Shown piece after piece: positions 3 to 21,669 of a DNA stretch of 64,000 nucleotides. Positions within the stretch are counted from its first letter, which is position 1, and every line of letters begins with the position of its first letter. The stretch lies in contig NZ_CP016268.1 in assembly GCF_001677435.1 (NCBI RefSeq), positions 1,291,001 through 1,355,000 on the forward strand. Reading direction: 5' to 3'. A program made the translations under genes and the position numbers. The notes below the pieces were generated by a model, which ran no database searches, was not told where the DNA came from, and saw only the letters and a list, made by a program, of their open reading frames with translations. Source of the DNA: Woeseia oceani. Its GTDB lineage: Bacteria > Pseudomonadota > Gammaproteobacteria > Steroidobacterales > Woeseiaceae.

Positions 3-1433
3 GACAGCTTTCAGGTTTTCGTGGTGGGTGCGCTGGCGGACGCTGATCATGCGGCGATCATACTGTTCTCAATGATGATAGGCGGCATGGTTGGCATCAT
101 CACCCGCAACGGGGGAATGGCCCGTATTGTCGAGATGTTTGTCAGCCGTGCGAAAACTGCGGTCAGTGGTCAGGTGTCGGTCTGGTTGATGGGCTTGATG
201 ATTTTCTTCGACGATTACAGCAACACGCTGGTCGTCGGCAATACCGCAAGGCCATTAACCGACCGATTGTCCATATCACGCGAAAAGTTGGCTTATATCG
301 TTGACTCGACGGCCGCGCCGGTCGTGTGCATTGCGTTGATTACGACCTGGATCGGTTACGAAGTGGGGCTGATCGGCACTGCACTCGAACAGATTCCGGC
401 TATCGACGCGCCGGCATACACCGTGTTTCTAAATTCCATTCCCTATAGCTTCTACCCGATTTTCGCCATCGTATTCGTGTTGGCGGTTGCGGTCAGTGGC
501 CGGGATTTCGGGCCGATGTATCGCGCTGAACAACGGGCTCGCGCTGGCGAGGTGGCGCCGCTCAGTAGCGAAGAGTTGCCCGCCATGCAGGGCGACAATC
601 TGGAAGCCAAACCGGATGTGCCGTTTCGTGCGTGGAATGCGTTCGTACCCTTGCTGGTAATGATCGCGACATTGTTGATCGGGCTTTACGCCACCGGCAG
701 CGGCGATGAACTGATGGACATCATCGGCTCTGCAGATTCGTACAAGGCGATGCTGTGGGCTTCGCTGCTTGGCGCACTGACGGCCGCGGTAATGAGCGTA
801 GCACAACGCATATTAACGGCTGAGGAAACAGTGGATGCCTGGTACGGTGGCGTGCGCGCGATGTTGTTCGCAATGATTGTTCTGGTGCTCGCCTGGGCGC
901 TGTCGAGCGTGACGGAAGCCCTGCACACAGCTGATTACCTGGTGTCGATATTGGCCGATTCGCTGCCGGCACCACTGGTGCCCGCCACGGTATTTCTACT
1001 GTCGGCAGTTACCGCATTCACCACCGGCACCAGTTGGGGCACGATGGGCATACTGATGCCGCTGGTAGTGCCGTTGACCTGGGCCGTGATGGGCGTGTCC
1101 GGTATGCAGGACCCCGAACACATGCATCTGCTGTATTCCGCGATTGCCTGCAATCTGGCCGGTGCCGTCTGGGGCGATCACTGCTCGCCGATTTCAGATA
1201 CAACGGTGCTGTCGTCAATGGCAAGCAGTTGCGATCACATAGAACACATTCGTACCCAGATGCCTTACGCACTGCTGGTTGGTGGCGTGGCCATGGCGGC
1301 GGGCACGATACCCGGAGGTTACGGAGTGTCGCCACTCATTTCATTGCCAATCGGTGTGTTGTTGCTTATTGGTGTCTTGCGCTATTTCGGTCGCGTCGCC
1401 GGTCAGGAACCGGCGACGGGAGCATCGGGCTGA
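3..1433 (+). CDS. NhaC-family Na+/H+ antiporter, 5' truncated by window edge
   Basis: This is an inner-membrane transporter of the NhaC antiporter family, which exchanges sodium (in some members organic anions) for protons. The reading frame is open to the left edge, so the N terminus is missing and about 476 codons are visible. Many hydrophobic helices are seen. Motifs typical of NhaC are DDYSNTLVVG near the start, GTSWGTMGILMPL around two thirds, and GDHCSPISDTTVLSSM shortly after it. A hydrophilic loop lies around visible residues 175-200. The 3' end overlaps the convergent isomerase gene by 31 bp. It lies 1.6 kb from the polyamine cluster, but nothing shows that it carries polyamines. The family call is firm; the substrate is not known. 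Confidence 0.85.
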   Translation, partial: DSFQVFVVGALADADHAAIILFSMMIGGMVGIITRNGGMARIVEMFVSRAKTAVSGQVSVWLMGLMIFFDDYSNTLVVGNTARPLTDRLSISREKLAYIVDSTAAPVVCIALITTWIGYEVGLIGTALEQIPAIDAPAYTVFLNSIPYSFYPIFAIVFVLAVAVSGRDFGPMYRAEQRARAGEVAPLSSEELPAMQGDNLEAKPDVPFRAWNAFVPLLVMIATLLIGLYATGSGDELMDIIGSADSYKAMLWASLLGALTAAVMSVAQRILTAEETVDAWYGGVRAMLFAMIVLVLAWALSSVTEALHTADYLVSILADSLPAPLVPATVFLLSAVTAFTTGTSWGTMGILMPLVVPLTWAVMGVSGMQDPEHMHLLYSAIACNLAGAVWGDHCSPISDTTVLSSMASSCDHIEHIRTQMPYALLVGGVAMAAGTIPGGYGVSPLISLPIGVLLLIGVLRYFGRVAGQEPATGASG

Positions 1434-2053
1434 CGTTCAGGAACGGCCTCGCTGAATGCCGGCAGTTGCAGGCAATGCGCGTCAATTGAGGTCAGCAACG
1501 GGTAGGGTGCAAGGTCAACGTTGAATCGTCTTGCGTTGTACATTTGTGGGACCAGCCATGCATCGGCCATCGTCGCGGAGTCTCCGTAACAGAACCGGCC
1601 ATCGCTACCGGATCGTGCGACGAGTTTCTCCAATGCCGCAAAGTTGCGGCCAATCCAATGTCGCGTCCATTCGGCAACAGCATCGTCGTCAGCGCCGAAG
1701 CTGCTACGCAGGTGATTGAGTACGCGCAGGTTTTGCAACGGATGTGTATCACAGGCAATAAGCGCAGCCATTTCACGTACCCGCGCACGACCGTCGGGGT
1801 CGCTCGGTAGTAAGGCCGGGTCGGGGTAACGTTCTTCAAGGTATTCAGCGATCGCCAGTGACTGGCCCAATGACAACTTACCGGTCTCCAGGACCGGCAC
1901 CAATCCCGTCGGGTTGCGCTCGAGAAACTCAGCTTTGGATTGTTCGCCGCGGTTCAGCATGACGGGCTCGAATTCCCAGCTGATTTTCTTCAGGTTCAAC
2001 AGAATTCTGATTCGGTAACTCGCGCTGCTACGGTAATACCCATACAGTTTCAT
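1403..2053 (-). CDS. maiA: Maleylacetoacetate isomerase (zeta-class glutathione transferase)
   Basis: This enzyme isomerises maleylacetoacetate to fumarylacetoacetate using glutathione, in tyrosine/homogentisate breakdown in the cytoplasm. The N-terminal thioredoxin-like domain carries YYRSSASYRIRILLNLK, the zeta-class SSxxxR signature for glutathione. NPTGLVPVLE supplies the cis-proline, and an all-helical GST domain follows (about residues 85-213). I chose the ATG at 2053, where homologues begin; a GTG at 2065 is also possible. No hppD, hmgA or fahA lies next to it, so the rest of the pathway is outside the window. Related zeta GSTs act on other substrates, so the exact substrate is inferred from the family. 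Confidence 0.87.
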   Translation of the reverse strand: MKLYGYYRSSASYRIRILLNLKKISWEFEPVMLNRGEQSKAEFLERNPTGLVPVLETGKLSLGQSLAIAEYLEERYPDPALLPSDPDGRARVREMAALIACDTHPLQNLRVLNHLRSSFGADDDAVAEWTRHWIGRNFAALEKLVARSGSDGRFCYGDSATMADAWLVPQMYNARRFNVDLAPYPLLTSIDAHCLQLPAFSEAVPERQPDAPVAGS

Positions 2054-2198
2054 AGGAAAATTCACATCTCTTCAGGTGGTGGAAAGGACGGCACGGCGGC
2101 GAATAGTTTAACGTTTCAGGAGCGCGGCGTCTGACTGATAAATAGGCTAAACTGCTGCATCCAGTTATTTTTTTAATACTCAAAATTGAGGACACACG

Positions 2199-2942
2199 AT
2201 GCGTAGCCTTGTTTCACTCATTGTATTGCTGATGGCGTTGCCGTCAATCGCCGACGAACAGACCGAACAGAAAGTCCGTGACGCCATGACGTCGTCCGTA
2301 AGGACTGAAGCGGAAATTGCACGTGATGCCAATCGCAAGCCGGTCGAGACACTGGCGTTTTTTGGATTGAAAGACGATATGCGTGTGCTCGAGCTGTTAC
2401 CCGGGGGTGGCTGGTACACGAAGCTGCTGGCACCGGTACTGCGTGATAAAGGTGAGCTGTACGTGTCAATCGGCACGAATAGCGTCAGCAGCAATCTGAT
2501 GACACAGGACGGCTTTGATCACATCAAAGTTTTGGACATTGATGCCGCGATGGAGCGTTCTGGTCCTTTTGGCACCAATAACATTGGGCCATTTGATTTC
2601 GGCGTTAAAGGCCTGGATCTGGTGGTTACTTTCCGCAACATGCACAACTTCACGCCCGAAGGCCGCGCCAACATCAATGACGCGGTATTCAAATCACTCG
2701 CCCGTGGCGGACTCTACGGCGTGATTGACCATAGCCGTCGGCACATGGAACCGTTGTCTATGGAAACACGCCGACGTGCCGATGTTGTTGAGATCATCAA
2801 GGAAGTACAGGCTGCCGGTTTCGAGCTCGTGGACTACAGCGATCTGCATTTCCGCCCGGATGACGAGCTTCGCTACGAAGTTGGTCGTCGCACCGTGACC
2901 GGCAATACCGATCGCTTCACGTTGTTGTTCAAGAAACCCTGA
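2199..2942 (+). CDS. Exported class I SAM methyltransferase-like protein (COG4798 type)
   Basis: This 247-residue protein has a clear signal peptide (about residues 1-18, ending before DEQTEQ), so it is probably exported. The mature part has a Rossmann methyltransferase fold: VLELLPGGGWYTKLLAPVL is the glycine-rich SAM-binding motif I, and LDLVVTFRNMHNF corresponds to motif IV. The family is described as predicted methyltransferases without a proven substrate. Having a SAM-type fold behind a signal peptide is odd, because SAM is not expected in the periplasm, but it is characteristic of this family. The gene stands alone and ends in a strong hairpin (2951-2979). The product is hypothetical in function. 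Confidence 0.75.
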   Translation: MRSLVSLIVLLMALPSIADEQTEQKVRDAMTSSVRTEAEIARDANRKPVETLAFFGLKDDMRVLELLPGGGWYTKLLAPVLRDKGELYVSIGTNSVSSNLMTQDGFDHIKVLDIDAAMERSGPFGTNNIGPFDFGVKGLDLVVTFRNMHNFTPEGRANINDAVFKSLARGGLYGVIDHSRRHMEPLSMETRRRADVVEIIKEVQAAGFELVDYSDLHFRPDDELRYEVGRRTVTGNTDRFTLLFKKP

Positions 2943-2950
2943 AACAGCGA

Positions 2951-2979
2951 GCGGGCAGGGCATCGACAGCCCTGCCCGC
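2951..2979 (+). terminator. GC-rich hairpin after the methyltransferase-like gene
   Basis: An 11-bp perfect inverted repeat (GCGGGCAGGGC / GCCCTGCCCGC) with a 7-nt loop begins 8 nt after the stop codon. It is not followed by a T tract, so it may act as an RNA 3'-end stabiliser or a U-tract-independent terminator rather than a classical one. Confidence 0.6.
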
Positions 2980-3075
2980 CGTCAGGTGGTGTACAGGAAC
3001 GTCGGGTCTGACGTATCCTAGACCTTCCGGGCAAAAATGCCTGACGCGACCAGGTTCAGGCCATTTTGGCCCTAT

Positions 3076-3831
3076 ATGTGTGCAAAACCCGTAATCGGAA
3101 TTCCGTCGGATCGGCGTATCGTCGAGCCGCACCCGTTCCATATGGTGGGCGAAAAATACATCTCGGCGATCGTTGACGGCGCTCGAAGTCTGCCGGTCTT
3201 ATTGCCCGCGCTGGGTGGTCGGCTGCCTGCCGGGGAGTTGCTAACGGCAATCGACGGTCTGTTCCTGACCGGTAGCCCGTCGAACGTTGAGCCGCATCAC
3301 TACGGTGGTTCGCCCAGCCGTTCGGGCACCTTGCACGATCCCGCGCGGGACGCCACGACGTTGCCCCTGATCGACGCCGCGCTGGCGGCCGGCATGCCTG
3401 TCTTTGCCGTGTGCCGTGGTTTTCAGGAACTGAACGTGGTGCTTGGTGGCTCGCTGCACCCGTTTGTGCACGAAGTGCCGGGCTATCACGTGCACAAAGA
3501 AAACCCTGCTGATCCGCTCGATGTTCAGTACGCGCCGGCCCACCCCGTCAAACTGGTTGAGGGTGGATTGCTGCACGCATTGGCCGGTCGAGGTTCTGTG
3601 ATGGTGAACTCATTGCACAGTCAGGGCATCGCCCAACTGGCCAGTGATGTGCGCATTGAGGCATTGGCAGACGATGGCTTGGTTGAGGCGTTCAGTGTTG
3701 ACAAGTACAACAGTTTCGCACTGGCGGTGCAGTGGCACCCGGAATGGCGCGTGACCGAGAACGAATTTTCCATGGCAATGTTTTCCGCATTCGGTGATGC
3801 GTGCCGCGATTTTGCGCAACGACATCGATAA
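3076..3831 (+). CDS. puuD: Gamma-glutamyl-GABA hydrolase (class I glutamine amidotransferase-like)
   Basis: PuuD-type enzymes release glutamate from gamma-glutamyl-GABA or related gamma-glutamyl amino acids, the last step of the glutamylated polyamine route. The nucleophile Cys113 lies in FAVCRGFQELN, and the His/Glu of the triad are in VQWHPEW near the C terminus. The 251-residue length fits the family. The frame opens at 3037, but the ATG at 3076 (MCAKPVIGIP) matches homologues and is preferred. It lies just upstream of the PuuA-like synthetase on the same strand, 81 bp away, consistent with one polyamine operon. Hydrolysis of a related conjugate, such as gamma-glutamyl-beta-alanine, is also possible. 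Confidence 0.9.
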   Translation: MCAKPVIGIPSDRRIVEPHPFHMVGEKYISAIVDGARSLPVLLPALGGRLPAGELLTAIDGLFLTGSPSNVEPHHYGGSPSRSGTLHDPARDATTLPLIDAALAAGMPVFAVCRGFQELNVVLGGSLHPFVHEVPGYHVHKENPADPLDVQYAPAHPVKLVEGGLLHALAGRGSVMVNSLHSQGIAQLASDVRIEALADDGLVEAFSVDKYNSFALAVQWHPEWRVTENEFSMAMFSAFGDACRDFAQRHR

Positions 3832-3890
3832 TCTGTGCAACAACAACGACGTACTTAAAACAATAAAGCAATCAATCCAAGGTGCCCGGA

Positions 3891-3901
3891 AAGTGGCACA
3901 T
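3891..3901 (+). promoter_or_regulatory. Candidate polyamine-regulon operator upstream of puuA
   Basis: AAGTGGCACAT lies immediately before the Shine-Dalgarno (GAAGG, 3902-3906) of the synthetase gene. Nearly the same sequence occurs twice in the regulator/oxidase promoter region (8305-8315 on +, 8268-8278 on -). Recurrence at two promoters of one cluster that encodes an HTH regulator suggests an operator. This is an inference from three copies. Confidence 0.4.
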
Positions 3902-3912
3902 GAAGGTGTAAC

Positions 3913-5244
3913 GTGGATGACAAGGAGTTATTTCAAAATTGGTTCCGGGAACATAAAACGGAGGATCTAGAGGCCTTCGTTCCGGACATGGCCGGCGCCG
4001 CAAGAGGCAAGTTATTGCCCGCGGACAAATTTGGCAGAGGTGAGATGAAATTGCCCGAAGGCATTTTCGCTCAGACCGTTTCCGGCAACTATGTCGTAAA
4101 CAAATCCAATATCGAAGACCGGGATATGCTGTTGGTACCTGATTTCGCAACATTGCGACCGGTACCGTGGGCCAGCGATCCGGCGGCATCCGTATTCATG
4201 GATTGCCAGCGCAAAGACGGATCGCCAGTTAATACTTCCCCCCGGCAGGTCCTGAAGAACATCGTCAAGTTATACAGCGACAAAGGCTGGACGCCGGTGG
4301 TCGCACCCGAAGTCGAGTTCTATCTGCTGAATCCGCACTCTGATGCGAACGCGGAAGTGGAACCGCCGGAGGGCAGGCTTGGCCGAACTGAAACGGCCAA
4401 ACAGCCCTACAGTATTGACACGATGAATGATTTCGATCCGTTCATTAACGACGTTTATCTCTACTGCGAAGAACAAGGCATTTCGATTGACACGCTGTCC
4501 CAGGAAATGGGGCCAGCCCAGTTCGAGATCAACTTCTTGCATGGCGATCCAATCACGCTTGCCGATCAGGTGTTCCTGTTCAAACGCACGATTCGTGAAG
4601 CAGCAATCAAACATGAAATGCACGCGACTTTTCTTGCACGGCCAATGTCAGAGGAAGCCGGCAGTGCATTGCATATCCACCAGAGCGTCATCGACAAGGA
4701 CGGCGAGAATATATTCTCGAATTCGGATGGGTCGGCCAGTGAATTGTTTTATTCCTACATCGCGGGCCTGCAGAGGTACGTGCCCGAGGCTTTGCTAATG
4801 TTTGCACCGTATCCCAATTCCTATCGGCGTTTTCTCAGCTACTGGGCATCACCGATCAACCTGGATTGGGCAGTCGACAACAGGACGGTCGGGCTGCGAG
4901 TGCCGGATTCTGCACCCGCAGCACGCCGGGTTGAAAACCGGCTTGCCGGCGCGGACGTCAACCCCTATCTGGCGATAGCGGCTACACTGGCCTGCGGTTA
5001 CCTTGGCATGACCGAAGGCTTGTCGCCGACGGAAGAAACGACAGGCAGTGCCTATGACAAGCCGTTCGGTTTGCACCGACACATGTTCTCGGCGATTGAG
5101 GCCTTTGAAAGCAGTGACGCGCTACGCGCGACCCTGGGCGATTCGTTTGTTTCGCTGTACACGGCGCTCAAGTACGAAGAAGTGACGGAATTTGAACAGA
5201 TCGTGACTCCGTGGGAGCGCGAGGTCTTGATGTTCAACGTCTGA
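3913..5244 (+). CDS. puuA: Gamma-glutamylpolyamine synthetase (glutamine synthetase family)
   Basis: This ATP-dependent ligase joins glutamate to a diamine or polyamine such as putrescine, the first step of the Puu pathway. The 443-residue protein has the glutamine synthetase fold: an N-terminal beta-grasp domain (about 1-105) and a catalytic domain with metal/ATP motifs APEVEFYLL, FEINFLHGDP, ALHIHQSV and NSYRRFL. It is shorter than a GlnA of nitrogen assimilation and lacks the adenylylation-site region, as in the PuuA/PauA group. The GTG start at 3913 is preceded by GAAGG at a 6-nt spacing. The neighbouring PuuD, PuuB and agmatinase homologues support polyamine use. Which polyamine is preferred cannot be read from the sequence. 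Confidence 0.88.
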   Translation: MDDKELFQNWFREHKTEDLEAFVPDMAGAARGKLLPADKFGRGEMKLPEGIFAQTVSGNYVVNKSNIEDRDMLLVPDFATLRPVPWASDPAASVFMDCQRKDGSPVNTSPRQVLKNIVKLYSDKGWTPVVAPEVEFYLLNPHSDANAEVEPPEGRLGRTETAKQPYSIDTMNDFDPFINDVYLYCEEQGISIDTLSQEMGPAQFEINFLHGDPITLADQVFLFKRTIREAAIKHEMHATFLARPMSEEAGSALHIHQSVIDKDGENIFSNSDGSASELFYSYIAGLQRYVPEALLMFAPYPNSYRRFLSYWASPINLDWAVDNRTVGLRVPDSAPAARRVENRLAGADVNPYLAIAATLACGYLGMTEGLSPTEETTGSAYDKPFGLHRHMFSAIEAFESSDALRATLGDSFVSLYTALKYEEVTEFEQIVTPWEREVLMFNV

Positions 5245-5362
5245 TCGATCATTGCACCCAGCCTTTAGTGAGACCGTCAGGATGTGAAATCACACTGCCG
5301 AACGGTTTCACTATTGGCTAACATGATTCGCATAACTACCTACCCAATTGAGGATCCGGACT

Positions 5363-6736
5363 ATGGCAATTGCCGATAGCCGTCAAGGCAGTGAATGGAA
5401 AGACCTGGACGGTCGCCACTACTTGCACCCGTTTACCGACCACAAGTCACTGGCCAAGACCGGGAGTCGCATCGTTACCCGTGCCGACGGTGTCTATATT
5501 TTCGATGCCGACGGCAACAAAATTCTTGATGGTATGTCCGGGCTCTGGTGCGTGAATGCGGGCTACGGTCGCGACGAACTGGTCGATGCCGCTGCAAACC
5601 AGATGCGGGAATTGCCGTACTACAACAGCTTCTTTCAGTGCGCTCATCCGCCGTCAATTGAGTTGTCGCGCATGTTGCAGGAAATCACCCAGCCGCAATT
5701 CAATCGGGTTTTTTACACGGGCTCAGGTTCCGAATCGATCGATACCATGATTCGGATGGTGCGCCACTACTGGGAACTGAAGGGCGAGCCACAACGCAAG
5801 ACCCTCATCGCGCGGAAAAACGCCTACCACGGTTCGACAATTGGCGGCGCCAGCCTTGGCGGGATGAAGCCGATGCATTCTCAAGGCGGGCCAATGGTGC
5901 CGCGCATTGAACATATCGATCAGCCGTACTGGTTTGGCAGCGACCGTTCGTTGTCGCCGGACGAATTCGGTCTGCAGGCTGCGCAGTTGTTGCGCCAGAA
6001 AATTGAAGCGCTGGGGCCGGATCAGGTGGCGGCTTTTGTGGGTGAGCCTATACAGGGGGCGGGCGGAGTGATTATTCCGCCGGACAGCTACTGGCCCGAG
6101 ATTCAGAAGATTTGCGACGAGTACGGCATCCTGTTGGTGACCGATGAGGTCATTTGTGGCTTTGGTCGACTCGGGCAATGGTTTGGCGCGGATTATTTCG
6201 ACGTCAAACCCGATCTCATGACGTTTGCCAAAGGTGTCACCTCCGGCTATCTGCCGCTTGGCGGTGTCATGGTCGGTGACCGGGTTGCGGACGCGCTGAT
6301 CGACAAGGGCGGCGAGTTTTACCATGGCTATACTTACTCGGGGCACCCGGCGGCTTGCGCCGTCGCAATAGAAAATATACGCATCCTGCAGCGGGAGAAT
6401 CTGGTGGAGCGCGTGCGCGATGACATCGGCCCCTATCTGGCAGAGCGCTGGCGCACGCTCGCAGAACACCCCATCGTTGGTGAAACGAGGATGGTTGGAT
6501 TGATGGGTGCGCTGGAGCTGGTGGCCGATAAATCGAGTCTCGCACGGTTTGACGAAAAAATAGGCGCAGGCACCCTCTGCCGTGATTTTCTGGTGAACAA
6601 CGGGCTTGTCATGCGCGCCGTAGGAGATACGATCGTGGTTGCTCCGCCATTGACGTTGAGTCATGAAGAGGCGGACGAGCTGATAGGCAAAGCCTGGAAG
6701 TGCCTCGACCTGACGCAAAAGGCGATCGCGGCTTAA
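5363..6736 (+). CDS. spuC: Class III aminotransferase, putrescine/diamine--pyruvate type
   Basis: This PLP-dependent aminotransferase of the class III (omega) group probably uses a diamine or omega-amino acid with pyruvate. The 457-residue protein has the cofactor-binding TGSGSESIDT, the aspartate in LLVTDEVICGFGRLG, and the Schiff-base lysine in LMTFAKGVTSGYLPLGG. The overall sequence resembles SpuC/putrescine--pyruvate aminotransferases. ATG 5363 is preferred over the in-frame TTG at 5348. It is followed 26 bp later by the agmatinase-family gene, probably co-transcribed. A second, clearly distinct class III enzyme lies at 9738-11078, so the two probably act on different amines of the pathway. 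Confidence 0.85.
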   Translation: MAIADSRQGSEWKDLDGRHYLHPFTDHKSLAKTGSRIVTRADGVYIFDADGNKILDGMSGLWCVNAGYGRDELVDAAANQMRELPYYNSFFQCAHPPSIELSRMLQEITQPQFNRVFYTGSGSESIDTMIRMVRHYWELKGEPQRKTLIARKNAYHGSTIGGASLGGMKPMHSQGGPMVPRIEHIDQPYWFGSDRSLSPDEFGLQAAQLLRQKIEALGPDQVAAFVGEPIQGAGGVIIPPDSYWPEIQKICDEYGILLVTDEVICGFGRLGQWFGADYFDVKPDLMTFAKGVTSGYLPLGGVMVGDRVADALIDKGGEFYHGYTYSGHPAACAVAIENIRILQRENLVERVRDDIGPYLAERWRTLAEHPIVGETRMVGLMGALELVADKSSLARFDEKIGAGTLCRDFLVNNGLVMRAVGDTIVVAPPLTLSHEEADELIGKAWKCLDLTQKAIAA

Positions 6737-6762
6737 CAGCGGAATCGCAACGGAGTTCATGC

Positions 6763-7710
6763 ATGGACAAACGGGCTGGCGACCACGCGATTTTACGCAG
6801 TGATCTTTACGGCACTACGCCTGAGCCAACTTTCGCCGGTGCTTTGTCGTTCATGCGGCGCAAGTACAGCCGCGATCTTGAAGGCGTGGATCTGGTAGTG
6901 AGCGGTGTGCCGCTCGACACGGCAACGACCAACAGGCCGGGTGCCCGGTTCGGACCCAGGGCCATCAGGGCGGCGTCGTCGATCATGGCCTGGGAACGGC
7001 CATACGGCATGGAGTTCGACCCTTTCGACGTGCTGGCGGTCGTTGACTACGGCGACTGTTTTTTTGATCACGGTCGCCCGGATACGGTGCCAGAGGTCAT
7101 CGAGAGACACGCGCTCGAGATCATTTCACAGGGGCCGGGTTTGTTGTCTCTCGGTGGCGATCATTTTGTCTCCTACCCCTTGCTGCGGGCGCACGCGGAA
7201 AAATTCGGCGCGCCACTATCGTTACTGCATTTCGATGCGCACAGTGACACCTGGGAAGATGACGAAGGCCGGATTGACCACGGCACGATGTTTTACCACG
7301 CGGTCCAGGAGGGCTTGGTCGATCCCGAGCATTCTGTGCAGATCGGGCTGCGAACGCGCAATGCCGATACGCTCGGTTTCCAGATTCTTGACGGTCCGTG
7401 GGTGCAAGACAACGGGATTGACGCTGTCGTTGATGCGGCGCACGCGATACTGGGCGAGCGCCCGGTATACCTGACGTTTGATATCGACTGCCTCGACCCG
7501 GCATTTGCGCCCGGCACTGGTACGCCGGTGTGCGGCGGTCTCAGCACCTACCAGGCGATCAGTATTCTGCGCGGCATGCACGGCATTAACCTGATTGGCG
7601 GTGACGTCGTCGAAGTTGCACCGGCTTACGATGTTGGGGAAATAACCGCATTGGCCGCGGCGCACGTGGCGATGGAAATTATCGGTATCTACGCAGCCGC
7701 CAACAGCTAG
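6763..7710 (+). CDS. speB: Agmatinase / ureohydrolase family enzyme
   Basis: Ureohydrolases cleave a guanidino group to urea; SpeB converts agmatine to putrescine. The binuclear manganese site is complete: SLGGDHFVSYP, HFDAHSDTWED and TFDIDCLDPAFAPGTGTP carry the His/Asp ligands. The length of 315 residues is normal. The ATG at 6763 has CGGAG upstream; the frame also extends 63 nt further into the preceding gene. In context it would feed putrescine into the gamma-glutamyl route. Guanidinobutyrase and guanidinopropionase belong to the same family and cannot be excluded, and guanidinopropionate would fit the beta-alanine genes downstream. Its end is 7 bp from the convergent regulator gene. Confidence 0.85.
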   Translation: MDKRAGDHAILRSDLYGTTPEPTFAGALSFMRRKYSRDLEGVDLVVSGVPLDTATTNRPGARFGPRAIRAASSIMAWERPYGMEFDPFDVLAVVDYGDCFFDHGRPDTVPEVIERHALEIISQGPGLLSLGGDHFVSYPLLRAHAEKFGAPLSLLHFDAHSDTWEDDEGRIDHGTMFYHAVQEGLVDPEHSVQIGLRTRNADTLGFQILDGPWVQDNGIDAVVDAAHAILGERPVYLTFDIDCLDPAFAPGTGTPVCGGLSTYQAISILRGMHGINLIGGDVVEVAPAYDVGEITALAAAHVAMEIIGIYAAANS

Positions 7711-7717
7711 CGTCGTT

Positions 7718-8263
7718 CTAAAAGCTCGGCGGGGTGCAAGCGGAGACCAGCAGGCATTCAGAGCTGCCGGTATTGCGAAAGCGATGCGGCATGCGGCTGT
7801 TGAAGCGATAGGCGTCGCCGACTCCCAGTGTCTGTACCTGGTCGCCGACCGTAACCTCCAGGCGTCCCGAGAGGATGATGCCACCTTCCTCAGCATCGTG
7901 ACTTAACATCGACTTGCCGGTGTCAGCGCCAGGCTCGTAGCGTTCGTAAAGAATCTGCAACTGGCTGCCACTCAGGTCGCTACCGACCTGGCGAAAGCTG
8001 ATCGGACCGCTGCTGATTTCGCTCAGCTCCTCGGCGCGAAAAAACACTTGTTCGCGGGAGCTGCTGTCTTCGGCAAAGAACTCTGAAAACGATACGCCCA
8101 TGGCAACGAGTATGCGCTTCAGCAAGCCCATCGACGGGTCGCTTTGTCCTGATTCGATGAGGGAAACAGTCGCGTTGGATACGCCCGCCATCGCGGCGAG
8201 TCGACGTTGCGACAGGTGATGCGAATGGCGAAGTTTCTTCAAACGCAGCCCAATTTCGTCCAT
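7718..8263 (-). CDS. puuR: PuuR/PauR-like HTH-cupin transcriptional regulator
   Basis: This 181-residue regulator has an N-terminal XRE-type helix-turn-helix (residues about 5-60, LSQRRLAAMAGVSNATVSLIES) and a C-terminal cupin-2 domain (about 105-178, GGIILSGRLEVTVG and PHRFRN). That is the architecture of the putrescine repressor PuuR and its Pseudomonas counterpart PauR. ATG 8263 is preferred to the upstream GTG at 8269; AAGAGG on the minus strand is its ribosome-binding site. It is divergent from the oxidase gene and probably represses the cluster, with polyamine or a glutamyl intermediate as inducer. The repeated AAGwGGCACrT motif overlaps its own leader, suggesting autoregulation. Confidence 0.85.
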   Translation of the reverse strand: MDEIGLRLKKLRHSHHLSQRRLAAMAGVSNATVSLIESGQSDPSMGLLKRILVAMGVSFSEFFAEDSSSREQVFFRAEELSEISSGPISFRQVGSDLSGSQLQILYERYEPGADTGKSMLSHDAEEGGIILSGRLEVTVGDQVQTLGVGDAYRFNSRMPHRFRNTGSSECLLVSACTPPSF

Positions 8264-8267
8264 GCGC

Positions 8268-8315
8268 ACGTGCCTCTTGTTGAATCGTTAAAAATAATAA
8301 ACGAAAGTGGCACGT
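8268..8315. promoter_or_regulatory. Divergent puuR/puuB control region with an 11-bp inverted repeat
   Basis: ACGTGCCTCTT (8268-8278) and AAGTGGCACGT (8305-8315) are inverted copies differing at one position, flanking an A/T-rich spacer that is the likely promoter zone. The right arm, extended as GAAAGTGGCACGT, matches the sequence before the synthetase gene at 3889-3901 with one difference. This is a plausible binding site for the adjacent HTH-cupin regulator. Confidence 0.5.
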
Positions 8316-8393
8316 AGTCTATATAAAACAAGTAGTTAATATCAATCGTTTAAATATTGTTAACTCCCGAATGCAGGAGTACCCTGAGCCACC

Positions 8394-9674
8394 ATGCAGT
8401 ACACAGAACCTCATACCGCTTCGTACTACGCAGCGACGAGCCACTGGCAGACCGATTACCCGCGCCTCGATGGAGATGCGAGTTGTGACGTGGCTGTCGT
8501 TGGTGCGGGCTTTACCGGTGTCTCGGCGGCGCTCAGTCTTGCCGAACGTGGCTACAACGTCATCCTGCTCGAGTCACATCGCGTGGGCTGGGGTGCCTCA
8601 GGACGCAATGGCGGGCAGCTGATTGACGGCTTCGTCGAAGTCGAAAAAATCGAAAAGCGCTTAGGGCATCAAGCGGCAGAGATTGCCTACGGAATGGGTC
8701 TCGAATGCCGGGACCTGGTGCTCGAGCGGATAGAGCGCTACGGCATTGATTGTGATCTCAAGTTCGGCTATCTGGATCTGGCGCTGAACGACGGTGATAT
8801 GGCGTATTTCCGGTCAGAGATCGAACGCAAGGAGCAACGGGCCTACCCTCACGCGATGACACTGGTCGAGAAGGCCGATATTCCACGTTATATTGGCTCC
8901 GAGCGTTATGTCGGCGGGCTTGTCAATCGCGGCAATGGTCACCTGCATCCGTTGAATCTGTGCATCGGCGAGGCTCGCGCCGCGGAGCAATTGGGTGTGC
9001 GCATCCATGAGCAGACTCCGGTTACCCGCGTGTTGCACGGCGCCAGCCCCAAAGTGGAAACGCCATTTGGCACGGTCAGCGCGAACAAAGTCGTTCTGGC
9101 CGGCAACGCTTATTTGGGGCGCAGCGAACGACGGTTATTTGGCTCTGTCATTCCTGCCGGTAGCTACATAATTGCTACCGAAGCGTTAGGCGACGAGCAA
9201 GCGACAACGCTGCTGCCCGAAGACATGGCCGCCTGCGACCAGCGCGTGGGTCTGGACTATTTTCGCTTGTCGGCTGACAAGCGCTTGTTGTTTGGTGGTC
9301 TGTGCAATTACTCGGGGCGTGACCCGAGCGACATCGGCGCGACGTTGCGGCCGAATATGCTCAAAGTATTCCCGCAATTGGCCGATGCAAAAATCGAGTT
9401 CCAGTGGGGCGGCAATATTGCCATCAGCATTAATCGTATCCCGCAGTTCGGGCGCATCGAAGACAACACCTGGTACGCGCAAGGGTATTCCGGACACGGG
9501 CTTGCACCTTCGCATCTTGCCGGCAAAGTGCTGGCCGATGCGATTGGTGGCGAAATGGAGCAGTTCGACGTCTTCGCGCGTATTCGCCATCTGCGTTTGC
9601 CGGGCGGCAAGTGGTTTGCCAATCCCGCGCTTGCACTGGGCATGCTTTATTACCGTTTGAAAGAAATTCTTTAG
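8394..9674 (+). CDS. puuB: Gamma-glutamylpolyamine oxidase (FAD, DAO family)
   Basis: PuuB-type flavoenzymes oxidise gamma-glutamylputrescine to the aldehyde with release of ammonia and peroxide. The N-terminal dinucleotide motif is VAVVGAGFTGVSAALSLAE, followed by WGASGRNGGQ, the signature of the OrdL/PuuB group. A C-terminal YAQGYSGHGLAPSHLAG segment closes the FAD site. The 426-residue length is normal. It is the first gene rightward from the divergent control region and is followed 63 bp later by an aminotransferase gene. The aldehyde it makes would need a PuuC-type dehydrogenase, which is not present in the window. Confidence 0.88.
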   Translation: MQYTEPHTASYYAATSHWQTDYPRLDGDASCDVAVVGAGFTGVSAALSLAERGYNVILLESHRVGWGASGRNGGQLIDGFVEVEKIEKRLGHQAAEIAYGMGLECRDLVLERIERYGIDCDLKFGYLDLALNDGDMAYFRSEIERKEQRAYPHAMTLVEKADIPRYIGSERYVGGLVNRGNGHLHPLNLCIGEARAAEQLGVRIHEQTPVTRVLHGASPKVETPFGTVSANKVVLAGNAYLGRSERRLFGSVIPAGSYIIATEALGDEQATTLLPEDMAACDQRVGLDYFRLSADKRLLFGGLCNYSGRDPSDIGATLRPNMLKVFPQLADAKIEFQWGGNIAISINRIPQFGRIEDNTWYAQGYSGHGLAPSHLAGKVLADAIGGEMEQFDVFARIRHLRLPGGKWFANPALALGMLYYRLKEIL

Positions 9675-15858: not shown

Positions 15859-16524
15859 TTACGCGGTGCGCGGATTGCCGGTTGGCAGGAAAATATTGAC
15901 GATCATGTCTGCCAGCATGTCCACGTTTCTGGGGTCATCCAGATCCACGCCACTGGATTCCTTCAATTCGACGTTCAGTGCGAGCACGGCGCCTGCAGAA
16001 ACGCGAATCATGTTGAACAACAGCGCGGGGTTGCCGGCGGGTGCGAGGCCCTGTTCCTGCAGCTTTTTCAGATCGGTGGCGGCTACCTCGAAAAGTGGCC
16101 GCATGTAGGTATCGATCAACCAGTCCAGACGTGGGTTGCTGTGACTGGACTCCTGGAACAACACTTTGTGCAGCGTCGGGTGGTCTGCTGCATAGTGCAC
16201 GTAGGCGCGAATTAACATCGCCATGCGTTCCCTCGGCGGTTCAGCTGCTGCTTGCGACTGAGCGTTTTCCAGTACCTGCATAAAGCCGGCGAATACGCGA
16301 TCGGCTGCCGCACGCCACAGTTCTTCTTTGTTCTTGAAATGGTACGTGATCAAGGGATGGTGGACACCGGCGCGTTCCGCGATGTCACGTGTGGAGGTAC
16401 CTTTAAAGCCGTTCTCGGCGAATGCCTGCAAGGCGGCATCGAGCAGCTTCTGTTTTGTAAGGATACTGCGCTGTTGCTGGCGGCGCGGTCGTTTTGGCTG
16501 CGCCTTGTCGTTCTGTGTACTCAC
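15859..16524 (-). CDS. TetR/AcrR family transcriptional regulator
   Basis: This 221-residue regulator has a basic N-terminal tail, then a TetR helix-turn-helix at about residues 22-68 (AFAENGFKGTSTRDIAERAG and LITYHFKNKEELW), and a ligand-binding helical domain with the C-terminal region typical of fatty-acid or xenobiotic-sensing members. It is convergent with the XdhC gene and its control target is not obvious. The nearest divergently placed promoter is that of its own gene. The ligand is unknown. Confidence 0.85.
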   Translation of the reverse strand: MSTQNDKAQPKRPRRQQQRSILTKQKLLDAALQAFAENGFKGTSTRDIAERAGVHHPLITYHFKNKEELWRAAADRVFAGFMQVLENAQSQAAAEPPRERMAMLIRAYVHYAADHPTLHKVLFQESSHSNPRLDWLIDTYMRPLFEVAATDLKKLQEQGLAPAGNPALLFNMIRVSAGAVLALNVELKESSGVDLDDPRNVDMLADMIVNIFLPTGNPRTA

Positions 16525-16646
16525 CTTTAGTCACTCTGACCATTGAACCGGATCCCTAGGGTATAAGGAAGTGTAGCGGTGGTCCAATTGGTTCGCGACA
16601 GCGCGCTGATCGTGCGCTTGCTTTTGCGCGTTACGCTAATGCCGGT

Positions 16647-19490
16647 TTATTCGATGCTGAATGACATCCGTACCGCGACGCGTTTTGGTACCGCGCGGCC
16701 GTTTTCGATGACTGGTTCGAAGCGCCATTGTTCGACAGCATCAGCGGCTGCTTCATCAAAAATCGAGCCGGGCGTGGAGTCTATGATCTCAAGGTCGGTA
16801 ACGCTGCCGGTAGTGGTTACGGTAAAGCGGACATCAACCCAGCCGGTCACACTTCGGCGCTGTGCGCTGCGTGGGTATTTCGGTGCTACGTAGTTGATTC
16901 GGGTCAGTTGACTCACGGCTACCGGTTCCGGGTTGCCGGTAGCCGCCGTCGCTTGTGGCTTTTGATTCGCAGTGCGGGAGACCGCGCTGCCGTTAATGGC
17001 GGGGGCCGTTGAATCGCTGCCGTCTGTTGCGGCCGGCGCTGACGGTTGCGGCGTGCCGGAAGGCGTTGAAGTGATTTCATTCGCCCCGTCACTCGCCGGA
17101 CCTGCGGAGCTCAGCGTTGCAGAACTTGCTGCCCTGCGGCGCAATTCTGCGGCTCGTTGGGCTTCTTCTTCAATAGCCGCGGCTTGTCGGGCGGCTTCGG
17201 CCTGCCGCTCTGCTTCCGCTTGCTGGCTGATCGCGTTTTGCAGTGCTGCTTCCGAAGCTTGCAGTTCTTCGCTGTTCGGGGCGAGAGCCCGGGCGTCATT
17301 CAGGTACGTTTCCGCAATATCCAGAGCGCCAGTGTCTATCGCCGCACGCGCTTTCAAAACCAGTTTGCTCGCAACCACCAGCAAGCCTTGTTGTGCAGTT
17401 GCATTGTCCGGATCGTTAGACAGCGCGAGCTCGTAGAAGTACCGGGCATTGTCATTGGATGGCGCAGTCAATAGATCGTTCGCGAGACGCTGAGCCGCTA
17501 GCTCCAGCGTGTCTTCAACGCGCGCCGCACTGCGCGCTGCGGCAAGGTCGTTTGCCAGTTGCTGGATCTGAGTGACGTCAGCCCCGGGCAGTGTTTCCGC
17601 ACGTGCCAGGTGCCGGCTGGCGTCTTCGAATCGTGCCTCGCGGATCGCCTCACGCGCATTGTCCAGGGTGATGCGCAATTGTGTTTGCGCCAGTTGCGCC
17701 TGCAAAAAGGCCAGCCGCGAGTTGTCCGGGCTGGCGAGTGCAATCATTGCCAGTGCGTTTTCGGCGTCGGCAACCCGGTTTTCAAGCAGGGCCGTTTCGG
17801 CCATGCCGATTACCTGCTCGACCAGCTGGGCGAGTTCGTCACTAACCATCGCATTGTTGGGTGCTGCCGCGCGTGCGGCGACGTACCACTCAAGCGCATT
17901 GTCACCGGCCGGGGCGAGAACCCGTCCCGAGTCGCGCGCAAATCGTGCGTTGTCCAGCAATGCGACGTATTCCGGTGTCGGCGCGACTTGGGGCTGACTG
18001 GCCGGAAGCTGTTCGGCTTGAACGGGCTCCGCGATGGCGGCAGGCAGGTCCGATTCCGTCACTGAAGGTACTGCCGCTTTGACGGGCGGCTCAACGACTG
18101 TGGTCGGTGCGTCGTCAGTAGCGGCAAAGAACCAACCGGCAATGCCGATCAGGGCAACGACAACCGTGGCCGCGACAATGGGTACGAACCGCCGGCTCCT
18201 GCTTCTCGCTTTGGACTTGGCGCGACCGATTGTCGCTGTCATCTCGGCGACCGTTGCTTTGAGGCTGCCGGTCTCAGTCAGGGCCCGTTCGACGTCCGCG
18301 AACATTGCCTCGTCAGCTACGTGGTCTTCACCCGTCGCCGGAGTTTCTGCGGCAACGGGTACTTCGGGCGTGGCAGCTACTGTTGCCGCCGCTGGCGGCG
18401 CCGTTGGCTTTGTGGCAGCCGGCGCGGACGTCAATGGCGGTGTCGTTGGACGTGCGGGTGGTGCCGCTTTGTTGCCGGCGGCTGCTGGCGCTGCTGCACC
18501 TTTGGCGGCGGCGCTCTTGAAGGCAGCGTCCGCCGCTTCCAGGTGGTGCTTAACGGATGCTTCTACAGCAAGGCGGGCCCGACCCGGTGACACTGGTTTC
18601 AACAGGAATCGATAGACCTGGCCACGGTTGATCAGGTCCATCAGCATTTCACCGTCATCGCGACGGCCGGCGACGATGGCGACGAGTCGTGGCTGACTGA
18701 GCCGAAGCTTTTGCGTAAGAAGTTCGATCTTGCCGCCGGTGATGGCGGCATCTGTAACCAGTACGCCTATGGGGTGCGCTGCCAGGGCATCCAGCGCTTG
18801 TTGGGCTGTGGCGGCATGGTGCACTTTGTGCAGGCCGCTTGAAGACTCACGTATCGTATCGAGAAATTCGGAATCCTTGGTGAGAACCAGAACATCAACA
18901 TTGCGGCCCCGGGATTGCGGATTGAGTTGAATCTTCTCCGGCTTCAGCGCCGGCATGCGCCCGGTGCCATCGCTGATGATCGTCGTGCCGTTCTCGGCGG
19001 TTTCCATGACGATATGCTCGCCTTCGGGTTCCATAGAGGAAACATCCAGCTTCGCCGAAACATCGACATTGGCGGCTGTGTCATTCGCCGATTTCGCAAG
19101 GGTGAGCATGCGTACCCGGCGAGTTGCGTTCTCGACTACCTTGAGCAGCGCATCGGGTTCCACAGCGCCGCGTACGATCTGGAACACTTCCTGGTCGCCG
19201 ACCAATGCTTCCAGGCCATCAGCGTTATCGCTGCCGGCGAGCAGAATGCCCACGGTATCCGGCGAGCGTTTCTTGGCCTCGCGTAATGCTTCGAGCCCGC
19301 TCATGCCGGGCAGGTCCTGCGCGGAGACGATGATATGGATGGGCGTCTCGCCCAACGTGGTCAGGGCCTCGGAGCCGCTGGTGGCGAAATGCACGGAGTA
19401 ACGGTCATTGAAGCCAGCGCCGAGTGTGTCCAGTGTTCCTTGTTCACTGTGCAGCAACAGCACCTGTGTTCTGAATTGCTCCAACGCCAC
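16647..19490 (-). CDS. Receiver-receiver-transmembrane-helical repeat-TonB fusion protein
   Basis: This 947-residue protein has an unusual order of domains. Residues about 8-125 and 198-320 are receiver-like. The first has Ala57 where the phosphorylated aspartate should be and no Lys-Pro near its end; the second keeps Asp247 and Lys298-Pro299 (QVYRFLLKPV). Residues about 321-390 are an Ala/Pro linker. A hydrophobic helix at 435-457 is preceded by a basic stretch, placing the receivers in the cytoplasm. A helical, TPR-like periplasmic part follows (about 490-760), then a charged coiled coil and a low-complexity Ser/Thr/Ala region. Residues about 860-947 form the TonB C-terminal domain (YPRSAQRRSVTGWVDVRF, AVEQWRFEPV). 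It could couple an inner-membrane signal to an outer-membrane receptor. No exbB or exbD lies nearby. The function is unknown. Confidence 0.85.
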   Translation of the reverse strand: MALEQFRTQVLLLHSEQGTLDTLGAGFNDRYSVHFATSGSEALTTLGETPIHIIVSAQDLPGMSGLEALREAKKRSPDTVGILLAGSDNADGLEALVGDQEVFQIVRGAVEPDALLKVVENATRRVRMLTLAKSANDTAANVDVSAKLDVSSMEPEGEHIVMETAENGTTIISDGTGRMPALKPEKIQLNPQSRGRNVDVLVLTKDSEFLDTIRESSSGLHKVHHAATAQQALDALAAHPIGVLVTDAAITGGKIELLTQKLRLSQPRLVAIVAGRRDDGEMLMDLINRGQVYRFLLKPVSPGRARLAVEASVKHHLEAADAAFKSAAAKGAAAPAAAGNKAAPPARPTTPPLTSAPAATKPTAPPAAATVAATPEVPVAAETPATGEDHVADEAMFADVERALTETGSLKATVAEMTATIGRAKSKARSRSRRFVPIVAATVVVALIGIAGWFFAATDDAPTTVVEPPVKAAVPSVTESDLPAAIAEPVQAEQLPASQPQVAPTPEYVALLDNARFARDSGRVLAPAGDNALEWYVAARAAAPNNAMVSDELAQLVEQVIGMAETALLENRVADAENALAMIALASPDNSRLAFLQAQLAQTQLRITLDNAREAIREARFEDASRHLARAETLPGADVTQIQQLANDLAAARSAARVEDTLELAAQRLANDLLTAPSNDNARYFYELALSNDPDNATAQQGLLVVASKLVLKARAAIDTGALDIAETYLNDARALAPNSEELQASEAALQNAISQQAEAERQAEAARQAAAIEEEAQRAAELRRRAASSATLSSAGPASDGANEITSTPSGTPQPSAPAATDGSDSTAPAINGSAVSRTANQKPQATAATGNPEPVAVSQLTRINYVAPKYPRSAQRRSVTGWVDVRFTVTTTGSVTDLEIIDSTPGSIFDEAAADAVEQWRFEPVIENGRAVPKRVAVRMSFSIE

Positions 19491-19707
19491 GACAGACCTC
19501 CGGGGGAGTTATGTTTAATGAGGAAACGTCTGTTTCCGAGCGTTGAGTATAGCCACGGGAATCGCAGTAATTGCGACATGGCGCGGTCGGAGTACTGAAT
19601 TTGTGACACGCAGCACAATGCCACAGTAGCCAGTTCACATTTCCTGGCGCGCGGGGGTTGACAGCGATACCGAGGCCGCCGCTGGCGGTGGGCATTGCGT
19701 CATGCAG

Positions 19708-19740
19708 CCACTGGCCGCCGGAGAGCCCGGCGGCCAGTGG
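19708..19740 (-). terminator. Strong hairpin after thrS
   Basis: A perfect 14-bp stem (CCACTGGCCGCCGG with its complement) and a 5-nt loop begin 7 nt beyond the thrS stop codon on the minus strand. No T tract follows. It probably ends or protects the thrS message and separates it from the receiver-TonB gene. Confidence 0.65.
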
Positions 19741-19746
19741 TGTGTG

Positions 19747-21669
19747 TCAGGCTGCGCGGCCTCTGCTGGCAATTTCGGCCAGCAGCGTCTCGATCGCGTC
19801 GTCCAGGCTGGCCACTTTCTGGTGCTTCGAGCCCAATCGGCGTACGGCAACGGTTTGTTCCTCGACTTCGCGCTGACCAACCGCCAGCAGGACCGGCGTC
19901 TTGGTGACGCTGTGTTCGCGGACTTTGTAGGAGATTTTTTCGTTGCGGAGATCTGCCTCGGCACTGATGCCTGCCGCGCGCAGACGTTTGACCACGTCAC
20001 TGGCATAGTCATCCGCGTCAGAGGTAATGGTAAGAACCTTGACCTGGGTCGGCGCCAGCCACAAAGGCAGATTCCCTGCGTAGTGTTCAATCAGAATGCC
20101 AATGAAACGCTCCAGCGAGCCAAAGATGGCTCGATGCAACATGACGGGTGTGTGTTTCTGGCCGTCTTCGCCGATGTACGTCGCCGACAGTCGCGATGGC
20201 ATGTTGAGGTCAACTTGCAGTGTGCCACACTGCCAATCACGGCCAATGGCATCGCGCAGTACGAATTCCAGTTTGGGGCCATAGAATGCGCCTTCGCCCG
20301 GGTTGTAACTGTACTCAAGTCCAGACTGTTCCAGTGCCTTCTTCAATGCGTTCTCGGCCGCATCCCAGACCTTGTCTTCGCCCACACGGACTTCCGGCCG
20401 GTCAGCAAATTTCACGATGACATTGTCGAAACCAAGATCAGCATAGATGCCGAGTATCAGCTCACAGACAGCAACCGACTCTTCGGTGATCTGCTCAGTG
20501 GTGCAGAATATGTGAGCGTCATCCTGAGTGAATGCACGTACACGCATCATGCCGTGCAGGGCGCCCGACGGTTCGTAACGATGCACCTTGCCGAACTCGG
20601 CAAGCCGGTACGGCAGGTCGCGGTAACTGGTTATGCCTTGCTTGAAGACCTGTACATGCCCGGGGCAGTTCATTGGCTTGATGGCGTAATTGCGCCCGTC
20701 TTCGGTTTCGCTCGTGTACATATGCTCGCCGAACGTTTCCCAATGTCCCGAGGTTTCCCACAGACTGCGATCCATCAGTTCCGGCGTGTTGATCTCTTCA
20801 TAGCCTGCCGCTGTTTGTCGTTGTCGCATGAACTCGATCAGGTTCTGAAACAGGCGCCAGCCCTTCGGGTGCCAGAATACCGCGCCAGGTGCTTCTTCCT
20901 GGAAGTGGAACAGATCCATGATCTTGCCGAGCCGGCGGTGATCGCGTTTTTCGGCTTCTTCCAGCTGCGTCAGGTAAACGCGCAACTGTTTCGGGTCGGC
21001 CCAGGCCGTGCCGTAAATCCGTTGCAACATTGCGTTCTTTGCGTCGCCGCGCCAATAAGCACCCGATACGCGCAGCAGTCGGAATGCTTTGCCCAGCCGC
21101 CCGGTTGACGGCAGGTGAGGGCCGCGGCACAGATCGACAAACTCACCTTGTCGATAGAGCGTCAGTGTGTCGCCGGCCGGAATATCTTCGATGATCTGTG
21201 CTTTGTATTCTTCACCCAGTTGCCGGAAAAAGGCCACCGCGTCGTCGCGCGTCCATACTTCGCGTTCGATTTTCTCGTCGCGCTTTACGATTTCGTGCAT
21301 ACGGGCCTCGATGATTTCGAGGTCCTCTGTGGTGAACGGTTCGTCACGGGCAAAGTCGTAGTAAAAGCCGTTCTCGATAGCCGGGCCGATGGTGACCTGG
21401 GTGTCGGGCCAAAGTTCTTTGACCGCTTCCGCCAAAACATGGGCGGCATCGTGACGCAGCAGCTCCAGGCCGTCTTCGCTCTCGCGAGTGACTATTTCAA
21501 CCTTCGCGTCCGAGTCGAGCTCACGATTGAGATCGCGGAGTTCGCCGTTGACCCGGATCGCCACGGCATCGCGTGCCAGGTTGCGGGAGATTGAGGACGC
21601 GATATCGACGCCGTTCACCGGAGTCGGGTATTCACGCCGGGAGCCGTCGGGCAATTCAATAGTGAGCAT
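19747..21669 (-). CDS. thrS: Threonyl-tRNA synthetase
   Basis: This cytoplasmic class II synthetase charges tRNA-Thr. The 640-residue protein is full length: TGS domain (about 1-62), the editing domain with [16 protein letters not shown] (about 65-225), the class II catalytic core with the zinc ligand Cys in [12 protein letters not shown], motif 2 around [17 protein letters not shown], and the anticodon-binding domain from about 540. ATG 21669 gives the usual N terminus [10 protein letters not shown] minus-strand TACAAT (21709-21714) is a likely -10 box. In many gammaproteobacteria thrS leads into infC-rpmI-rplT; here it stands alone and ends in a hairpin. Confidence 0.97.

Follow-up and report, generated by a model that had tools for sequence, protein, structure and literature searches.

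In the 64,000-nucleotide stretch of the Woeseia oceani genome analyzed here (the window), an open reading frame of 947 codons occupies positions 16647–19490 of the minus strand and begins with a GTG codon at 19490. The encoded protein joins two receiver domains (REC1 and REC2), a membrane helix, a helical repeat, and a TonB C-terminal domain (TonB_C) in a single chain. An earlier note on this DNA had recognized the frame, which is real, but had left its strand unnamed. The first residue of the protein coincides with the start residue of its homologues, and a GGAGG sequence found by eye 6 nucleotides ahead of the GTG (19497–19501, minus strand) is likely to serve as the ribosome-binding site. 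The source genome consists of one contig of 4,059,891 bases. Coordinates are collected in Table 1.

Table 1. Features of the fusion gene, its conserved neighbors, and related kinase chains (positions refer to the window or, where a locus is named, to that locus).
Feature	Position	Strand	Basis
Coding sequence, 947 amino acids, GTG start	16647..19490	-	Frame call; shared start residue in homologues
Likely ribosome-binding site GGAGG	19497..19501	-	By eye
REC1, residues 8-135, pseudo-receiver	19086..19469	-	Pfam, homologue alignment, AlphaFold2 model, structural matches
REC2, residues 198-320, degenerate receiver	18531..18899	-	Homologue alignment, AlphaFold2 model, structural matches
Ala/Pro/Thr-rich linker, predicted cytoplasmic, residues 321-434, basic next to the membrane	18189..18530	-	AlphaFold2 pLDDT <50 over 328-446
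Predicted transmembrane helix, residues 435-457, no His	18120..18188	-	Hydrophobic window, AlphaFold2 model
Predicted periplasmic all-helical TPR-like repeat, residues 506-793, final long helix 741-793	17112..17975	-	AlphaFold2 model
TonB C-terminal domain, residues 855-947	16650..16928	-	Pfam, TIGR01352, AlphaFold2, Foldseek
thrS, conserved upstream neighbor (context)	19747..21669	-	Named by eye from sequence
TetR-family regulator, conserved downstream neighbor (context)	15859..16524	-	TetR_N E 1e-16
Ser/Thr kinase-TonB_C chains	L138:3431-6025, L141:4421-6931, L142:4587-7091, L143:4087-6594, L135:6798-9401, L136:7285-9453		

Architecture and conservation of the fused protein

Pfam assigns two stretches of the chain to Response_reg (PF00072; E 2.8e-13, 50.5 bits, curated cut-off 30.2) and residues 869–945 to TonB_C (PF03544; E 1.7e-20, 73.7 bits, cut-off 24.6). 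The TonB family model TIGR01352 scores 63.8 bits against a cut-off of 27.1. An AlphaFold2 model built with 48 relatives has a mean pLDDT of 72, and most ten-residue blocks exceed 80 except in the linkers and the membrane helix. In this model, REC1 spans residues 8–135 and REC2 residues 199–318; a helix at 440–454 is followed by a helical repeat at 506–793 and by TonB_C at about 855–947. The best Foldseek match is PleD, which spans the receivers; the C-terminal domain matches TonB bound to FoxA (6i97_D, root-mean-square deviation (rmsd) 1.0, TM by target 0.91) and to BtuB (2gsk_B). Receivers match both REC1 and REC2 in VIA-align with Z of 16–19, and the modeled REC1 has no α4 helix. Profile and fold searches agree on two receivers and a TonB_C domain in one chain, as the earlier note had read it.

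The helix at 440–454 is modeled at low confidence and lies within a hydrophobic stretch (435–457). This stretch and the all-helical region behind it bear out the membrane helix and periplasmic helical repeat that had been proposed. The repeat appears TPR-like in the model; Pfam TPR models find no match in the window protein and match some relatives weakly. The Foldseek and VIA-align match lists for the protein are taken up by receiver and TonB domains. The receivers would face the cytoplasm, and the repeat and TonB_C would lie in the periplasm.

The fusion is a stable, conserved gene of the Woeseiaceae. Among 99 genomes searched, that of W. oceani included, matches at E 1e-60 or better occur in 47 of the 61 from this family, some fragmented at contig ends, and none of the 38 from other families of the order yields a match better than 8.5e-24. 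The 14 family genomes without such a match include all nine of one genus (g5; genomes of 1.1–2.0 Mb). The 87 closed frames longer than 700 amino acids reduce to 69 distinct full-length single-chain proteins with the shared layout, the window's own among them. Where 2.5 kb or more of upstream sequence is available, thrS precedes the gene on the same strand, no more than 1.5 kb away, in 62 of 62 loci (65 of 70 when every locus is counted). Where the downstream sequence extends for 1.5 kb or more, a TetR gene follows directly in 53 of 58 loci (56 of 70 overall). Because the 69 homologues are single chains and the thrS and TetR flanks are constant, the fusion is not a misassembly. Mean identity to the window protein, calculated over 63 of the 69 rows after removal of the reference itself and of five others that were truncated or irregular, is 71% for each receiver, 61% for the inter-receiver linker, 59% for TonB_C, and 47% for the helical region; it falls to 18–25% in the remaining linkers and the membrane helix.

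Constant as they are, thrS and tetR proved uninformative, and the neighborhood was dropped as a guide to function. With these two genes on either side, no exbBD or TonB-dependent receptor gene adjoins the fusion, as the earlier note had stated. The genome has seven places of the MotA/TolQ/ExbB family, none of them inside the window. Besides the fusion gene, the closed frames of at least 600 amino acids in the window were identified by eye as probable genes for ThrS, a glutamate dehydrogenase, and SecD; no TonB-dependent receptor of the usual size is present among them. A promoter-like scan of positions 16400–19800 returned no site (shuffles averaged 0.5), and the terminator-like count over the same interval was 11, against a shuffle mean of 4.2. 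The 947-residue protein found no match in a plasmid search. By eye, a hairpin of 14 pairs without a T run is visible at window positions 19708–19740, directly past the thrS stop codon.

Catalytic residues of the two receivers

All five catalytic residues of REC1 are gone: the acidic pair is H14/S15, the phospho-accepting Asp is A57, the Thr is A85, and the Lys is G108. The same pentad is intact in REC1 of all 20 REC-REC regulators counted outside the order and of all 14 encoded in three-gene sets (both described below). Residues in the fusions were counted in 15 proteins, after L092, whose REC1 part had been separated from its REC2 when domains were cut for the receiver tree, had been dropped from 16 picked among the 69. 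In these the pentad reads His, Ser, Ala (one Val), Ala (one Thr), and Gly (one gap). Ala57 itself is found in 65 of the 69 homologues, the others having one Glu, one Val, and two gaps. The loss of these residues rules out a phospho-relay through REC1. A receiver fold without key catalytic residues defines a pseudo-receiver, as described in PMC12632262, and REC1 displays this combination.

REC2 departs from the phospho-accepting set less completely, retaining the Asp and Lys and lacking the acidic pair and Thr. The acidic-pair positions in the 15 counted fusions hold Thr/Ser and Lys/Arg/Gln, and all 15 have G275 in place of the Thr (A274 if the alternative column is taken). Regulators from outside the order have Thr or Ser in this column, and in the three-gene regulators Ser predominates. 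The Asp position is Glu in 15 of the 20 regulators outside the order. Since the metal-binding acidic pair is missing, normal phosphotransfer through Asp247 is unlikely, judging from the sequences. The earlier note had named Ala57, Asp247, and Lys298 correctly and had suggested that the second receiver is phosphorylated; none of the 69 homologues departs from Asp247 or Lys298, but the missing acidic pair and Thr leave that suggestion weak.

Conservation in REC2 differs between its two parts. Among 49 sequences, 36 of the 49 positions at residues 270–318, which form the β4-α4-β5-α5 side, are invariant, compared with 15 of 71 positions at residues 199–269. Dimers of the OmpR type are described as using an α4-β5-α5 interface (PMC12632262).

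The window protein has tandem receivers in common with PleD (REC-REC-GGDEF). In PleD, REC1 is phosphorylated and REC2 is a degenerate adaptor for dimerization. PleD acts through a cyclase; the window protein has a TonB arm across the membrane instead, and its REC1 is dead. Aspartate-less and pseudo-receivers such as FrzS and RitR have the receiver fold without the phospho-acceptor, like REC1, or without the metal site, like REC2. TonB goes unmentioned in the main texts of PMC12632262 and PMC4395418, both of which deal with receivers that lack key residues.

Relatives built from the same parts

At least 14 loci in 13 genomes from four families of the order (those fetched, not a full count) contain adjacent genes for a kinase, a REC-REC protein whose REC1 is intact, and a protein of TM-TPR-TonB_C layout, TM being a transmembrane segment. 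The kinase is a membrane histidine kinase; its H-box reads SHEINTP in 14 of 14, and Pfam, run on four of them, found HATPase_c in each. Two of the third genes were confirmed by Pfam and the others by profile. The set at L119 is tightly spaced, with gaps of 26 and 19 bp, and the third gene at L131 is split over two frames. In the proteins encoded at L124–L129, from other families of the order, the TonB half is fused to a single receiver of the REC2 type. Near the Woeseiaceae orthologues, a search restricted to operon-type kinases found none (100 loci; flanks of 3 kb or more were available upstream in 60 and downstream in 53).

Wider occurrence was surveyed in a sample of 369 genomes of the class, so that rarity outside the order is a sampled estimate; the REC2 profile matched 53 of them. 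Twenty loci from outside the order (L189–L208) encode output-less REC-REC regulators that are homologous to the REC1-REC2 pair of the window protein, but there REC1 is intact, the regulator is separate from the membrane, and an operon-type kinase is present in 20 of 20. A TonB_C gene sits beside the regulator in one of the 20, L201. This set (4867–8369) consists of a kinase (6639–8369), a REC-REC protein (5663–6670), and a TonB_C protein (4867–5820; TonB_C E 2.5e-21) that by eye has a coiled coil in place of the TPR region. Seventeen further REC2 loci have no TonB_C open reading frame nearby; eight are REC-REC genes by profile, and L258 comes from the window's own family. The kinase and output-less REC-REC pair of the L189–L208 kind is widespread in Gammaproteobacteria, and in two such pairs scanned none of the best 25 NCBIfam models reached its cut-off.

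A receiver tree (FastTree; root arbitrary, single-receiver rows represented by REC2 only) unites the fusions and single-receiver fusions with support of 0.995 and joins these to the three-gene regulators with 0.99. Within this clade the three-gene regulators stand apart from the fusions, and L201 lies outside it. The window protein thus appears to be a REC-REC regulator fused to a TonB arm, with REC1 dead. Regulator and TonB partner probably fused within this order, and we infer the order of events. Because L201, with its different arm, sits outside the receiver clade, REC-REC systems appear to have acquired a TonB_C partner on at least two occasions. A tree of TonB_C alone was set aside; its groups were poorly resolved, and it included L131, whose third gene has no TonB_C in frame.

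The arm is also found on Ser/Thr kinases. Six chains contain both Pkinase and TonB_C (Table 1); the match covers most of the arm in L138, L141, L142, and L143 and is confined to the TonB_C end in L135 and L136. When the arm was searched against the class sample, 39 of the 369 genomes gave matches, many through TonB_C alone. Further chains of 573–582 residues occur in two other families, and their N-terminal 140 residues match the REC2 profile (E 1e-11 to 5e-5, five sequences); no Pfam receiver model matched in the three that were scanned. The earlier note had tied cytoplasmic signaling to a TonB arm, and the three-gene sets, L201, and the kinase-TonB_C chains lend support to that connection.

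Two of these genes are followed on the same strand by a gene for a TonB-dependent receptor. At L242, a receiver-like-TM-TPR-TonB_C gene (5075–9303) precedes a receptor gene by 44 bp; at L143, from the window's genus, the kinase chain precedes one (1349–3925) by 161 bp. A kinase/LuxR-type regulator pair lies upstream of the L242 gene on the opposite strand. Receptor genes at L126, L127, and L135 are 2.6–3.1 kb off. In L239–L241, from one genus of another family, receiver-like TonB chains lie approximately 3–5 kb from ExbB and ExbD genes with two genes between. thrS is nearby in L239–L241 as well (it was scanned in L239), and the position it shares with the window gene is perhaps an old shared location.

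Possible roles of the TonB arm

We favor, with roughly even confidence, an explanation in which a phosphorylation-independent receiver pair sets the docking or state of a TonB-like arm that spans the envelope. The window protein would be a single-pass inner-membrane protein whose cytoplasmic double receiver descended from an output-less REC-REC regulator that worked with a histidine kinase. Relatives with the three-gene set would have REC1 phosphorylated by their kinase, and their receiver pair would act on a TM-TPR-TonB_C protein encoded by a gene of its own. In the fusion, the pair may instead dimerize or dock a conserved cytoplasmic partner without phosphorylation, the key face probably being the nearly invariant β4-α4-β5-α5 side of REC2. 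The pair would thereby set the state of the arm, which, because it ends in TonB_C, is expected to reach an outer-membrane partner. The most likely partners are TonB-dependent receptors, of which this genome encodes at least 23. The arm would bias, tether, or monitor receptors rather than pull on them with ExbBD force. A device independent of phosphorylation is suggested by the fused chain together with a REC1 devoid of any catalytic residue.

It is tempting to extend this explanation, at somewhat less than even confidence, to a modular class of signal-wired TonB arms mounted on kinase/REC-REC systems, pseudo-receivers, and Ser/Thr kinases, with the window protein as its phosphorylation-independent fused member. 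Cells with members of this class might switch or listen to outer-membrane receptors from the cytoplasm. The findings at L201 and L143 favor such a class.

Several observations weigh against a phosphorylation-independent pair that acts on receptors. REC2 keeps D206, D247, and K298 in 69 of 69 homologues, which is unexpectedly full for a dead domain. Its Asp is present in 34 of 35 TonB-linked proteins (13 of 14 three-gene, 15 of 15 fused, and 6 of 6 single-receiver), so that Asp247 may matter after all. The placing of the two receivers in the model is loose (pTM 0.43), and PleD fits both only at an rmsd of 14–19, so that a PleD-like packing of the pair is conjectural. The neighboring thrS and tetR give no functional hint, and a two-query search found no receptor gene in the orthologue loci. 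The receptor neighbors, seen with two receptor queries at 2 of 32 arm loci (20, six, and six from three fetches), could partly be chance. All 60 relatives have TonB-dependent receptors, and among them are eight g5 genomes, which lack the fusion gene. Since g5 keeps receptors without it, the gene is dispensable for receptor function as such. With receptors in every relative, their co-occurrence with the fusion is uninformative as a guide to function.

The strongest rival reverses the direction of the signal. TonB_C and the TPR region would sense an outer-membrane receptor or the envelope, and the receivers would release or bind a cytoplasmic effector. We regard this outside-in direction as possible but fairly improbable, and it ranks first among the rivals because kinases carry the same arm. 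In the six kinase-TonB_C chains, four of which have this arm, the periplasmic part would be the sensor, and the kinase chain of L143 directly precedes its receptor gene. The Hanks-type kinase PknS resembles the window protein in having a cytoplasmic signaling domain, one helix, and a periplasmic TPR region, with a kinase instead of receivers. Its TPR-rich periplasmic domain is suggested to modulate activation of the kinase (PMC13147305), a paper whose main text does not mention TonB. However, receivers usually take their input from kinases, and the membrane kinase that belongs to each three-gene set suggests flow from kinase to receiver.

Alternatively, the protein could be a true TonB energized by ExbBD, with delivery of force gated from the cytoplasm. 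Like TonB of E. coli and Pseudomonas aeruginosa, it has the characteristic C-terminal domain, a single membrane helix, and flexible Ala/Pro linkers. TonB, however, has a short cytoplasmic tail, whereas the window protein has approximately 435 residues ahead of the membrane helix; it also differs in its 290-residue periplasmic helical repeat, in the absence of Ser-xxx-His from the helix, and in having no adjoining exbBD. In the E. coli Ton structure, a Ser-His pair contacts ExbB, and the His is called essential (PMC12215075). Neither SxxxH nor any His occurs in the best hydrophobic window of the 69 homologues, although these windows are unconvincing as helices in L027, L064, L091, and L093 and possibly represent other stretches in L022, L084, and L106. 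Among 31 other arm proteins, three carry a His in the hydrophobic window. Because the Ser-His motif of TonB is missing from the helix, energizing by ExbBD is unlikely on sequence grounds. The His criterion is imperfect: four TonB_C proteins of this genome were checked for it, and only two have the His. One of those without it (L150:5227–7931, at about 2.637–2.640 Mb), TonB_C-like with a match below the family cut-off, adjoins ExbB- and ExbD-type genes. The seven ExbB-family places, an ExbB-ExbD-TonB locus elsewhere in the genome (L147), and the receiver-like chains of L239–L241, despite the two intervening genes, are also compatible with an energized protein. The description of the protein as an energy transducer in the earlier note is therefore doubtful: the canonical TonB_C stands in its favor, and the missing His, by an imperfect criterion, against it.

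Also quite unlikely is a structural or localizing scaffold in the manner of GltJ/GltG or TolA, in which the receivers would place the arm and no receptor traffic would be regulated. GltJ/GltG has a cytoplasmic signaling part, although its domains differ from those of the window protein. GltG/GltJ (AgmX/PglI) are described as envelope-spanning parts of the Myxococcus gliding machine with TonB_C-like motifs (PMC9389320), and SjdR, likewise TonB-like, is described as probably serving a function other than transport (PMC8262864). The AgmX/PglI tail model NF033768 matches the window protein weakly (21.9 bits, under the cut-off of 40), but TonB_C scores far above it and no motility genes were recognized next door. 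Finally, the chance that the frame is a misassembly or two genes wrongly joined is negligible: the 69 distinct single-chain proteins come from many assemblies, the three-gene regulators form a separate clade, and split relatives occur only as other, phylogenetically separate loci.

The individual parts, namely TonB, receivers, pseudo-receivers, and PleD-type pairs, are already known; a receiver-TonB or kinase-TonB chain was not found described in the open-access literature searched. The common view of TonB systems is that of power lines regulated by transcription and receptor occupancy. Receivers and a TonB domain joined across one helix, in a chain related to kinase-regulator-TonB gene sets, would make direct control of the outer membrane from the cytoplasm, or the reverse, testable. 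The fusion also offers a clean natural case of receiver function after the loss of phosphorylation, in which the same pair can be compared with an intact and a dead REC1 in the same bacterial family.

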